From Clostridioides difficile (GTDB lineage Bacteria; Bacillota; Clostridia; Peptostreptococcales; Peptostreptococcaceae): 48,488 nucleotides of DNA. Position numbers and translations under genes: made by a program. The stretch is taken from NCBI RefSeq assembly GCF_900243075.1, contig NZ_OEZH01000093.1:10969-59456 (forward strand). The letters run 5' to 3'. Position 1 is the stretch's first letter; the number at the start of each line of letters is the position of its first letter. Below are positions 17,015 through 48,488 of this stretch, one piece after another. The notes beneath the pieces were generated by a model. That model was not told the origin of the DNA. It ran no database searches and was given only the letters and a program-made list of their open reading frames with translations.

Positions 17015-17929
17015 TTGAATACTAAACAATTAGAATATTTTATATCTGTAGCAGAAACTCTAAGTTTTACCAAAACAGCAGAAAAATTCTATATTTCCCA
17101 AACTGCTGTTACACAGCAAATAAAAGCTTTAGAAGAACGAATAAATGTAACTCTATTTACAAGAAGTAAACGACATGTTGAACTAACACCAGCTGGGAAA
17201 GTTTTTTTATCTGAGGCTCGCACTATAATAAAAAATATTAATGATGCTATTGCAAAAACACAACAATTTGCGCATGGTTTTTTTGGAACTTTGAGTATTG
17301 GAATCTTAATAGGATATGAAAAAAACAAATTTCAACAATATTTAAAAGAATTTTCTAATACATACCCTAATATATCTATGGATATTTGTACTAATGAGAT
17401 AACCGAACTTTTAAACTTAGTAAAAAATAATTTTATGGACCTTGCCTTTGTTATTAATCCAGAAAATCAACCGTTAAAAGACTTTGAATATAAAACTGTA
17501 GAAAGATATTCTTTGGTAGCCCTTTTACCGTCTGGTCACCCACTTTATAATGAGGATTCTATCGATTTAATTGAACTACAGCATGATAAGTTTATTTTTG
17601 TAAAGGAAACAGGAGATGAGTATGGACAAAAATCCATGATACAAAATAGATATCGTGAAGCAGGGTTTGTGCCTAATGTGGTACAACGTTCAAATAATCT
17701 TAATACTATTGAGTCATTGGTAGCTTCTAACATGGGGATATCCATTTTACCTTCATTTTGTGTTACAGATACAATGCTAGAGCGTGATATTGCAATAGTC
17801 CCTATAAATGAAGTACAAAATAGAATTGAGGTTGTAGTTGTATGGAATAAAAACAATACAAATCCAGCATTGGAAAAATTTATTTCTATAATGTCAACTG
17901 CCATTACCCTAAAGGGTAGTAGCTTGTAA
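17015..17929 (+). CDS. LysR-family transcriptional regulator
   Basis: 304 aa. The N-terminal winged HTH reads TKQLEYFISVAETLSFTKTA and ISQTAVTQQIKALEE, standard for LysR proteins. The effector domain of about 90-300 has two Rossmann-like lobes, ending with SNMGISILPSF and the usual VVVWNKNN strand. It starts with TTG at 17015, preceded by AGGGGTG. Divergent from the five-gene LVIVD operon, so it most likely controls it with a small-molecule inducer. The IS element begins immediately after the stop codon and leaves the gene intact. Confidence 0.92.
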   Translation: MNTKQLEYFISVAETLSFTKTAEKFYISQTAVTQQIKALEERINVTLFTRSKRHVELTPAGKVFLSEARTIIKNINDAIAKTQQFAHGFFGTLSIGILIGYEKNKFQQYLKEFSNTYPNISMDICTNEITELLNLVKNNFMDLAFVINPENQPLKDFEYKTVERYSLVALLPSGHPLYNEDSIDLIELQHDKFIFVKETGDEYGQKSMIQNRYREAGFVPNVVQRSNNLNTIESLVASNMGISILPSFCVTDTMLERDIAIVPINEVQNRIEVVVVWNKNNTNPALEKFISIMSTAITLKGSSL

Positions 17930-17934
17930 AAAGC

Positions 17935-18130
17935 TAGTTGAATAGCCTAAGTTTACACTACGTTATGTAAGAATATATAGGTACTTTAGGATACTTCTCT
18001 AGTCCTAAACTCTACGGTATATCATTAAACATCACTGATGGCAGGTGAAGTGTGGTATATTTAAAACCTTTCATAACATTGGCGAAGAGAGCTTACCACC
18101 GTAAGGTGAGGTTAAATTATCTGAAAGGAT
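17935..18130 (+). ncRNA. HEARO RNA / omega RNA of IscB
   Basis: About 200 nt of conserved, structured sequence directly upstream of iscB, where HEARO RNAs (HNH endonuclease-associated RNA and ORF) lie. Visible pairings: TTACA/TGTAA (17953-17957 with 17966-17970), TTTAGGA/TCCTAAA (17985-17991 with 18003-18009), CACC-GTAA-GGTG with a GNRA tetraloop (18097-18108), and a closing stem CCTTTCA/TGAAAGG (18067-18073 with 18122-18128). The block GGCGAAGAGAGCTTACCACC is what I recall as the conserved HEARO core. In IscB systems the guide is read from DNA just left of the element, so the spacer here would come from the end of lysR. Confidence 0.8.
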
Positions 18131-18136
18131 TATACT

Positions 18137-19489
18137 ATGGTATATGTAATTAATTTTGAAGGAAAACCATTAATGCCTACTACTAATGCAAAGGCTAGAA
18201 AATTATTAAAACAAAAGAAAGCTACTGTTAAAAGAGTTAATCCATTTATTATACAATTATTATATAAGACAGATACTGAATATATTCAAACTATAACATT
18301 GGGGATAGATAGTGGATATTTAAATATAGGATTTTCAGCTATAACAGATAGTAAAGAATTAATAGTTGGAGAAGTAAAATTGCTTCAAGGTATGAAAGAT
18401 AGATTATTAGAAAAAAGTCAGTATAGAAGAATTAGGAGACAAAGGTTAAGATATAGAAAACCTAGATGGAACAATCGAAAAATAAAACAAGGATGGTTAG
18501 CACCAAGTTTACAACATAAATTGAATACCCATCTTAAATTTATAGATTATCTTAATTCTATATTGCCTATCAGAAATATAGTAATAGAGGTTGCCAACTT
18601 TGATATACAAAAAATTAAAAATCCTGACATATCTGGAGTAGAATATCAACAGGGAGAACAAATGAGCTTTTGGAATGTAAGGGAATATGTGCTTCACAGA
18701 GATGGACACAAATGTCAAAATCCTAATTGTAAGAATAAGAGTAAAGAACAGATATTAGAAATTCATCATATTAAGTACAAGAGTGAAGGTGGTTCTGATG
18801 CTCCTAGTAATTTAATAACTTTGTGTAATAAGTGTCATACATCTCCTAATCATAAAAAGGGTAAATTTCTGTATGATTGGTGTGAAAATGGTAAAAAGGT
18901 CAGAGGTTTTAGAGATGCTACATTTATGTCAATGATAAGATGGTACTTATTGGAACAGTTGAAAGAAAAATATACTAACATTAAAGCAACTTATGGTTAT
19001 TTGACTAAAAATCATAGAATTGAACATGGTATAGAAAAAAGTCATTTTAATGATGCTTTTGCTATAGCTAAAGGTGTTAATCAAGTTAGAAATTTAGAAA
19101 TATTTAAAGTTGAACAATCAAGATTAAATAATAGAAGTCTTGAAAAATTCTATGATGCTAAATATATAGATAATAGAACTGGTGAGAAGGTTTCCGCAAG
19201 TGAACTTAATTGTGGAAGAAGGACTAGAAACAAGAATTTAAATTCTGAAAATCTTAGAGTGTTCAGAGGTCAGAAAATATCTAAAGGTCAAAGAAGAATA
19301 AGGAAGCAAAAATCATTGTATCAGCCAAATGACTTGATTAAATATGATAGAAATGTTTATACAGTTAAAGGTAGTCAGAATGAGGGTAAATACATAGCTT
19401 TAAAAGAAATCAAAAAAGTACCAAATGTAAAACTAATTAAGCCATATATCTTTAAGAAGGGGTTAAATTGGAGTCATGGATTATATTAG
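18137..19489 (+). CDS. iscB: IscB RNA-guided endonuclease
   Basis: 450 aa, with the domain order of IscB, the Cas9 ancestor. PLMP domain (about 1-45, EGKPLMPTTNAKARKLLK), RuvC-I (TLGIDSGYLNIGF, Asp58), Arg-rich bridge helix (about 96-114), RuvC-II (IVIEVANFD, Glu151), an HNH domain with a Cys-pair zinc knuckle (CQNPNC ... CNKCH) and catalytic ILEIHHIKY (His210/His211), RuvC-III (SHFNDAFAIAKG, His303 and Asp306), and a C-terminal region of about 135 residues for TAM/RNA contacts. All catalytic residues are present, so it is probably an active nuclease cutting both strands with the upstream omega RNA. The ATG follows AAAGG by 8 nt, a site that lies in the last stem of the RNA. Its 3' end overlaps tnpA by 14 nt. 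Confidence 0.95.
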   Translation: MVYVINFEGKPLMPTTNAKARKLLKQKKATVKRVNPFIIQLLYKTDTEYIQTITLGIDSGYLNIGFSAITDSKELIVGEVKLLQGMKDRLLEKSQYRRIRRQRLRYRKPRWNNRKIKQGWLAPSLQHKLNTHLKFIDYLNSILPIRNIVIEVANFDIQKIKNPDISGVEYQQGEQMSFWNVREYVLHRDGHKCQNPNCKNKSKEQILEIHHIKYKSEGGSDAPSNLITLCNKCHTSPNHKKGKFLYDWCENGKKVRGFRDATFMSMIRWYLLEQLKEKYTNIKATYGYLTKNHRIEHGIEKSHFNDAFAIAKGVNQVRNLEIFKVEQSRLNNRSLEKFYDAKYIDNRTGEKVSASELNCGRRTRNKNLNSENLRVFRGQKISKGQRRIRKQKSLYQPNDLIKYDRNVYTVKGSQNEGKYIALKEIKKVPNVKLIKPYIFKKGLNWSHGLY

Positions 19490-19877
19490 TAGAAATCATT
19501 CTAAGTATTTGTTATTAGTACATCTGATATTTGTATGTAAATACAGAAAAAATTTGCTAATTAAATTTGGCGATGAAATTAAACATATTCTTAGTGATGT
19601 AGCAAAAGAAAAAGATTTGATCATGGTTGAAATGGAAGTTGATAAAAATCATGTGCATCTATTAGTTAAATACAGACCAACAGTTTCTATATTGGAGATA
19701 GTAAGATGGTTCAAGCAGATTTCAACTTATAGAATTTGGCGAATTAATAATAATCAATTATACCTTAACAAATATTTTTGGAAGGAAAAGACTTTTTGGT
19801 TAGATGGATATTTTGCTTGTAGTATAGGTGCTATTTCTAAGGAAACTATTGAAAGATATATACATAATCAGGGATAA
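19476..19877 (+). CDS. tnpA: TnpA, IS200/IS605-family Y1 transposase
   Basis: 133 aa, full length for the family. The HUH motif is His59-Val-His61 in DKNHVHLLVKYRP, and the catalytic tyrosine is Tyr128 in KETIERYIHNQ. The N-terminal LLLVHLIFVCKYRK is characteristic. The enzyme excises and inserts a single-stranded circle via terminal hairpins. It starts within the end of iscB (14-nt overlap), so translation is probably coupled; only a poor GGAG site precedes the ATG. All active-site residues are intact, so the element may still be mobile. Confidence 0.95.
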   Translation: MDYISRNHSKYLLLVHLIFVCKYRKNLLIKFGDEIKHILSDVAKEKDLIMVEMEVDKNHVHLLVKYRPTVSILEIVRWFKQISTYRIWRINNNQLYLNKYFWKEKTFWLDGYFACSIGAISKETIERYIHNQG

Positions 19878-19885
19878 GCTTACAT

Positions 19886-19908
19886 CCACTAACCTAAAGG
19901 TATAGTGG
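19886..19908 (+). repeat. Right-end subterminal hairpin of the IS element
   Basis: CCACTA-ACC/GGT-A-TAGTGG: an imperfect hairpin with one bulged A, 9 nt after the tnpA stop. Such bulged hairpins near the ends are the TnpA recognition structures of IS200/IS605 elements. Confidence 0.75.
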
Positions 19909-19951
19909 TTTTACGCCTTATCTTATAAAAATTGATTAATATTGATTATAA

Positions 19952-19989
19952 AAATAGCATTAGCCACTTTTATATGGTTAATGCTATTT
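19952..19989. terminator. Bidirectional terminator between the IS and the permease gene
   Basis: 15-bp stem with one wobble (19952-19966, 19975-19989) and an 8-nt loop. The minus-strand read-out ends in TATTTTTATAA. It separates converging transcripts of tnpA and the permease remnant. The remaining bases of 19990-20163 show no gene. Confidence 0.75.
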
Positions 19990-20163
19990 CTACTTACTTA
20001 TTATTTAGTTTTTAATTTGCTATTTAATAATAGTATAAAAAGAACTGCATTTAACAACTATAAGTCTTTTCCCAGAAATGTCATTAAATAAATCAAGTCT
20101 AGAAATATTTATATGTATTGTTTAAGTAAAAATTTATTTTAATACTTCTTATTACTATTTTTA

Positions 20164-48398: not shown

Positions 48399-48488
48399 TC
48401 AAAATATGGTCAAATATATCCATATCGAGATTTTTCCTTCTTCATTGAACCTCGCCTTGCCTAAGCTACTACGATTTGGTATAGTTCT
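48399..48488 (-). CDS. 3' tail of a gene extending past the right edge
   Basis: An open frame of 29 codons to a TGA at 48401-48399 reads off the window edge. The KARFNEEGKISI stretch recalls the C-terminus of MscS-type channels (usually K-R-F-D-E-E-G-I), and mscS is a common DUF951 neighbour, but 29 residues cannot decide this. Confidence 0.25.
   Translation of the reverse strand, partial: RTIPNRSSLGKARFNEEGKISIWIYLTIF

Follow-up and report, generated by a model that had tools for sequence, protein, structure and literature searches.

A 48,488-nucleotide stretch of Clostridioides difficile DNA (contig NZ_OEZH01000093.1, positions 10,969 to 59,456), hereafter the window, carries an ISC (IS200/IS605-type) element of 2,032 bp at positions 17893 to 19924 (+), in which a HEARO/omega RNA is combined with the genes iscB and tnpA. 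Judged from its sequence, it is very likely an autonomous element with a working-looking IscB that would target copies of its insertion site lacking the element. The locus has the following features, given with the evidence for each (ORF, open reading frame; TAM, target-adjacent motif; aa, amino acids):

17015..17929 (+), lysR-family regulator, the host gene (ORF, Pfam LysR domains)
17877..17892 (+), predicted 16-nt guide of the omega RNA, the left flank at the 3' end of lysR (HEARO start at 17893 and known guide length)
17893..19924 (+), whole ISC / IS200-IS605-type element, 2032 bp (empty site in 7/7 congeners)
17893..18096 (+), HEARO/omega RNA scaffold (RF02033, 131.9 bits)
17905..17918 (+), left subterminal hairpin with a TAAA loop, part of the omega RNA (DNA fold of 17893-17945, z -2.6)
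18137..19489 (+), iscB, predicted RNA-guided endonuclease, 450 aa (ORF, NCBIfam, Pfam, alignments, model)
19476..19877 (+), tnpA, Y1 HUH transposase, 133 aa, overlapping iscB by 14 bases (ORF, NCBIfam, residues)
19886..19908 (+), right subterminal hairpin with a TAAA loop (DNA fold of 19876-19924, z -2.0)
19925..19930 (+), right flank ATAAAA, predicted TAM, whose other strand, TTTAT, is the predicted TnpA target (edge motif at five sites)
19952..19989 (+), 15-bp hairpin, probable native lysR terminator, now 3' of tnpA (RNA fold)

The lysR ortholog is present in all seven other genomes of the genus (the congeners), and in all seven the locus lacked the element, which fixed the element ends. A covariance-model search found no HEARO match in the seven genomes. 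In BLAST comparisons, congener sequence was collinear with the window up to 17890-17892 and resumed at about 19925 in six of the seven, leaving a one-base ambiguity at the right end (19924); in the seventh (G005), only about the first 20 bases right of the border could be aligned. This mapping against element-free strains, which the initial annotation had proposed, moved its start from 17930 to 17893 and set the end at 19924. The insertion point is the last codon of lysR, and the element and lysR are co-directional. Congener lysR stops directly after this point, with the native C terminus Ile-Ser-Ile-Ile-stop (-Val-stop in two congeners, L045 and L047). In the window, the last native codon keeps two host bases and takes its third from the element, followed by 11 extra codons and a stop, and the first 37 element bases double as the end of the lysR ORF. 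The hairpin at 19952-19989 folds as RNA at -18.4 kcal/mol (z -6.6), and a similar palindrome, judged by eye, follows lysR in six of the seven congeners; a terminator scan of the window listed none, this hairpin included. The hairpin is probably the native lysR terminator and, because it follows the right end, the element would lie between the coding end of lysR and its likely terminator.

The IscB protein scored 380.3 bits against the NCBIfam family guided_IscB (NF040563; cut-off, 175), and Pfam identified RRXRR and HNH domains. All catalytic residues named in the initial annotation (D58, E151, H210, H211, H303, and D306) were present; among 31 aligned sequences, E151, H210, H303, and D306 were invariant and D58 and H211 were kept in at least 90%. 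The PLMP, RuvC, and HNH regions aligned with those of OgeuIscB (7XHT, 8CSZ), and D58, E151, H303, and D306, counted along the printed alignment, coincided with D61, E193, H340, and D343, the RuvC residues of OgeuIscB (PMC9640706). The window protein is shorter, with 450 aa compared with 495 to 496 aa in the OgeuIscB chains. Among other solved chains, that of OrufIscB (9NVU) is an engineered REC variant, and that of TbaIscB (9K30) differs, in the printed alignment, where the window protein has D58 and one of its HNH histidines. When the model was superposed on IscB chains, the structural alignments, read at their end residues only, ran from model residue 1 to 446-450. The WED/TAM-interacting C-terminal domain was recognized at the level of the whole domain, with a match to the 9nvu profile through position 438 of 442. 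In the AlphaFold2 (AF2) model, blocks in residues 401 to 440 had a predicted local distance difference test (pLDDT) score of 76 to 88 and some C-terminal blocks 45 to 57; parts of the C-terminal half are thus of low confidence in the model. The likely ancestor of Cas9 is IscB (PMC9640706), and the element in the window is very probably functional.

The HEARO model RF02033 matched over its full length at 17893-18096 (+), directly upstream of iscB, with 131.9 bits (gathering score, 83; E, 3e-27), a strong outcome for the covariance-model check proposed earlier. Given this hit and the structural alignments described above, the refutation test set by the initial annotation does not go against the element. 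Forty of the 56 predicted pairs showed a two-sided change that keeps the pair among 15 sequences. IscB guides are the 16 to 17 nt located 5' of the scaffold (PMC9640706) and, since HEARO starts at 17893, the guide is predicted to be 17877-17892. Because the element sits in the last lysR codon, ahead of the likely terminator, the omega RNA guide would be the 3' end of lysR. OgeuIscB likewise has a HEARO-type omega RNA whose guide is 5', and its 3' TAM, like the one predicted here, carries purines at positions 3 and 4. In contrast to this left-flank guide, the TnpB guide is taken from the right end (PMC9956272). Co-directional insertion as a route to guide transcription was rejected, as no bias beyond local gene orientation was found. 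The nearest upstream ORF was co-directional in 39 of the 51 loci scored and the second upstream ORF in 32 of the 43 loci showing one, both counted by eye; two of 53 loci were left out for too short a flank, and the sample includes HEARO matches under the cut-off and several loci from one genome.

At the empty lysR site, ATAAAA comes immediately after the guide target. The guide plus ATAAAA was found perfectly in four of the seven congeners, with one mismatch in one and with two mismatches in two. The occupied site in the genome of the window has no TAM; the junction reads AATGTCAA, and GTCAAC, the left edge of the element, comes after the guide. Mismatches at positions 1 to 14 abolish cleavage by OgeuIscB (PMC9640706). 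An exact 14-nt seed followed by NTAAA occurred only at lysR in the four perfect-match genomes and was absent from the element's own genome. With one mismatch allowed, places other than lysR appeared in seven of eight genomes, three of them in its own genome, about as frequently as a backward control pattern or somewhat more. The TAM predicted for this IscB, ATAAA, differs from the NNRR of OgeuIscB (PMC9640706) yet is compatible with it, and ATAAAA is also compatible with the NTAAA of OrufIscB (PMC13180657).

Guide-RNA regulation has been described for nuclease-dead relatives of TnpB. That the element is mainly a guide-RNA regulator of its host locus is very improbable: the guide does lie in a host gene and the left flanks at some other IscB sites resemble ribosome-binding sites, but the nuclease residues are all kept and the target in its own genome has no TAM. 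An autonomous element with a cutting IscB remains the preferred reading.

TnpA scored 122 bits against the NCBIfam family transpos_IS200 (cut-off, 55) and retains HVH at 59-61 and Y128, the residues listed in the initial annotation. Its view that IscB, omega RNA, and TnpA form a complete element is borne out, and the family and covariance scores led us to reject a chance origin of the observation. Both ends have subterminal hairpins with modest z scores, as 2 (left) and 8 (right) of 200 shuffles folded as well. The ISC elements of Kapitonov, which reportedly consist of IscA and IscB, and the TnpB-type IS605 elements and CdISt1 IStrons likewise pair a Y1 TnpA with an RNA-guided nuclease. The IStron group including CdISt1 of C. 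difficile has the targets TTGAT, ATTAT, or TTTAT (PMC4227781), of which TTTAT is the complement of the element's edge motif ATAAA. Unlike a CdISt1-type IStron, the window has no group I intron family at gathering score.

In addition to the window copy, tblastn identified close copies on Clostridioides phage-plasmids. IscB was 97 to 98% identical on three C. difficile plasmid records of 132 to 136 kb, 96% identical on the 132.5-kb Clostridioides phage pCD1602_4, and 96 to 98% identical on six IMG/VR contigs. Big extrachromosomal siphophages of about 132 kb have been described in C. difficile (PMC5786514), and the plasmid records have phage tail, antirepressor, or integrase genes at most 6 kb from the element. 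The copies on pCd11_2, pCd18_2, pZ1322PCD0028-2, and pCD1602_4 have the same element, ends, and edge motif as the window, with other insertion sites and guides. Four phage sites were distinguished:

phage site A, in L160, L162, L173, and L174
phage site B, in L161, L164, L166, and L175
phage site C, in L163
phage site D, in L176 (pCD1602_4 bears the element at this site)

One representative per site had HEARO over the cut-off (124 to 137 bits). Sites A to D all have GTCAAC as the left edge, with a right flank that starts with ATAAA (L160 ends within the element, its right edge being unseen); together with lysR, ATAAA is at the right edge of all five known sites. Five sites of one element show that it has moved in the past. 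Site A is exactly empty in phiCDIF1296T, with no base gained or lost, indicating insertion without target duplication. The 16-nt target of site A plus ATAAAA was perfect in two of four element-free records and had one mismatch in the other two. For sites B, C, and D, insertion-free phages had the target with 0 mismatches (L180, L182, and L183, respectively) and then ATAAA. Because the sequence right of ATAAA differs in these phages, they are targets and not clean empty sites; at sites C and D, the matches cover the left flank and ATAAA and then diverge. The phage behind L182, pCD1602_4, has its own copy of the element at site D. Among 100 shuffled guides, the closest had 3, 1, 2, and 2 mismatches for sites A, B, C, and D; a perfect match would thus not be expected by chance, and the position of the targets at the homologous junction adds to this. 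A further record for site B (L181) had one mismatch to the target, equal to the best shuffled guide, and extra bases. The comparison leaves out matches H33, H34, H38, H41, H42, H44, and H49, and phage LIBA6276 yielded no junction for site D (L184). Site B was rejected as an exact empty-site pair, as LIBA6276 has 24 extra bases there. As a separate observation, this phage has a small palindrome between two ATAAA motifs (L180, about 2101-2126) that is absent from the element-bearing version of the site. In open-licence PMC literature, we found no description of IscB in Clostridioides or its phages.

The ratio of nonsynonymous to synonymous substitution rates (dN/dS) of iscB was 0.05 to 0.17 in all 10 pairs of five copies and 0.07 to 0.17 between the window and four phage copies. 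By this measure, IscB is under purifying selection. Of 11 Clostridioides copies, that of the window among them, 10 had an ORF of 450 to 451 aa; in L164 it was frameshifted to 434 aa. The gene was identical among L160, L162, L173, and L174 and between L161 and L166. The tnpA gene was whole in the window and in L176 (pCD1602_4) and internally deleted in 8 of 10 aligned copies, pCd11_2, pCd18_2, and pZ1322PCD0028-2 among them, by two distinct deletions; some of these records are identical, and tnpA is unseen in L160. A deletion common to L173 and L163, at two sites, was rejected as proof of movement after tnpA loss because it is flanked by 10-bp direct repeats and could have occurred twice independently. 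The case for selection after tnpA loss rests on two copies with a common site (B) and a common deletion, L161 and L175. These copies differ at 13 synonymous and 6 nonsynonymous codons, against an expectation by sites alone of about 1091 nonsynonymous to 256 synonymous. The excess of synonymous differences points to continuing selection on IscB after tnpA loss, unless recombination among phages brought the differences.

These copies raise the possibility that the phage-plasmid IscB is a tool of competition or homing independent of transposition, cutting insertion-free relatives at the matching site while tnpA decays. In this scenario, it would be an RNA-guided drive against the empty site in competitors, kept after tnpA loss, and the phage-borne population would have given rise to the chromosomal copy in the window. 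The long iscB ORFs beside decaying tnpA, the L161-L175 comparison, and a related phage with a perfect target and ATAAA for each of the four phage sites fit this scenario, and a gene-drive role in plasmids has been reported for TnpB (PMC11870625). However, recombination among phage copies could mimic the selection, simple insertion equally predicts a target in relatives, and only phage site A has a clean empty-site pair. In addition, L164 has a frameshifted iscB, and the copy in the window lies on a chromosome and still has its tnpA. We therefore regard both the competitive use and this origin of the window copy as tentative.

The preferred reading, an autonomous ISC element, is accompanied by the following model. 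TnpA would mobilize the element in single-stranded form, with cleavage beside TTTAT on the strand opposite the genes and at the conserved GTCAAC edge. Because the omega RNA starts at this left edge, the left flank would become the guide, here the 3' end of lysR, and the guide would probably be made as lysR transcription runs on into the element. Loaded with the omega RNA, IscB would cut site copies without the element, since these have ATAAAA immediately after the guide target, whereas the occupied site would be spared because GTCAAC comes after the guide. Repair from the element-bearing copy would then restore the insertion. Several results weigh against this reading. The AF2 model has a mean pLDDT of 74.9 and a predicted template modeling (pTM) score of 0.62, and the whole-chain Foldseek superposition is loose (TM, 0.50; root mean square deviation, 11.9 to 8csz). 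IsrB (8dmb), which presumably lacks the HNH domain, ties for first by Z in the structural alignment. Mobility has often been lost in the family, as the tnpA deletions indicate, and the single copy in the genome gives no sign of recent spread there. Promoter-like sites were no more frequent than in shuffles, and readthrough from lysR is the putative source of the omega RNA. The single copy and the lack of a promoter signal above chance would also suit an inert remnant, intact because it is recent, that has lost transcription and mobility. We consider such a remnant unlikely, since both ORFs and the RNA are intact and iscB is constrained between the window and the phage copies; moreover, insertion ahead of the likely lysR terminator would keep the element within the transcription unit.

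IscB was much rarer than TnpB in the genus, consistent with the initial annotation. The TnpB family had 5 to 61 matches, fragments included, in each of the eight genus genomes, and IscB exceeded its family cut-off in one of eight, the genome of the window. Any IscB match at E 0.001 was found in five of the eight, all but its own being weak and under the cut-off. With stricter filters, 5 of 100 relatives had HEARO over its cut-off, as had 9 of 391 genomes sampled from the class; both counts include the window's own genome. In other Clostridia, homology between same-genome copies mostly started at or a few bases from HEARO position 1, and 13 of 15 listed right ends, judged by eye, ran into ATGAA or ATAAA (not L131 and L140); the right-end register is ambiguous in the G101 and G217 families. 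The edge complement TTYAT resembles targets of the IS200/IS605 transposon family, and these comparisons support the same element geometry in other Clostridia. Several IscB elements of these genomes (L121-L137) seem to be flanked by a ribosome-binding site on the left and an ATGAA start codon on the right, which would put ribosome-binding sites into their guides. Insertion at start codons was set aside, as few sites were available and some came from repeated families: the edge ATGA opened an ORF of at least 70 aa at 6 of 12 sites, compared with 61 of 271 control ATGAA (binomial P = 0.03), in 12 of 15 copies, three G053 copies being left out. Short HEARO copies (L123, L124, L127, L131, L136, and L137) keep both ends and have no room for iscB, as only about 330 to 470 nt lie between the homology ends.

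Three further observations concern the surroundings. The window's own genome has 29 TnpB-family matches beside its single IscB, many of them small or broken. A stretch of about 45 bases at 20096-20140 recurs at more than 10 places in the genome, including five that lie less than 200 bases from where a contig starts, and is also present in several congeners. At 48434-48488 (-), cut by the contig end, a RAGATH-18 RNA match reached 45.7 bits (gathering score, 44.9). Because RAGATH-18 RNA is associated with IS607 TnpB nucleases (PMC11061315), a second RNA-guided element may start there.

Altogether, conservation and the logic of empty sites and TAM support the view, first put forward in the initial annotation, of this IscB as a good candidate for RNA-guided nuclease activity. 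An ATAAA-type TAM is predicted for a compact 450-aa IscB that has kept a TnpA of its own, a combination seen in only a few HEARO nucleases (PMC9755519). The element goes beyond the routine because sequence suffices to read off its guide and TAM, both states of its insertion site, empty and occupied, and its siblings on phages. Within this one family, guide and TAM are legible at five insertion sites, two of which (lysR and phage site A) have true empty-site partners. To our knowledge, the role of IscB for its natural carriers has been far less tested than its use in editing. Because sites, guides, TAM, and empty partners are readable here, models of retention and drive would be directly testable in laboratory strains.
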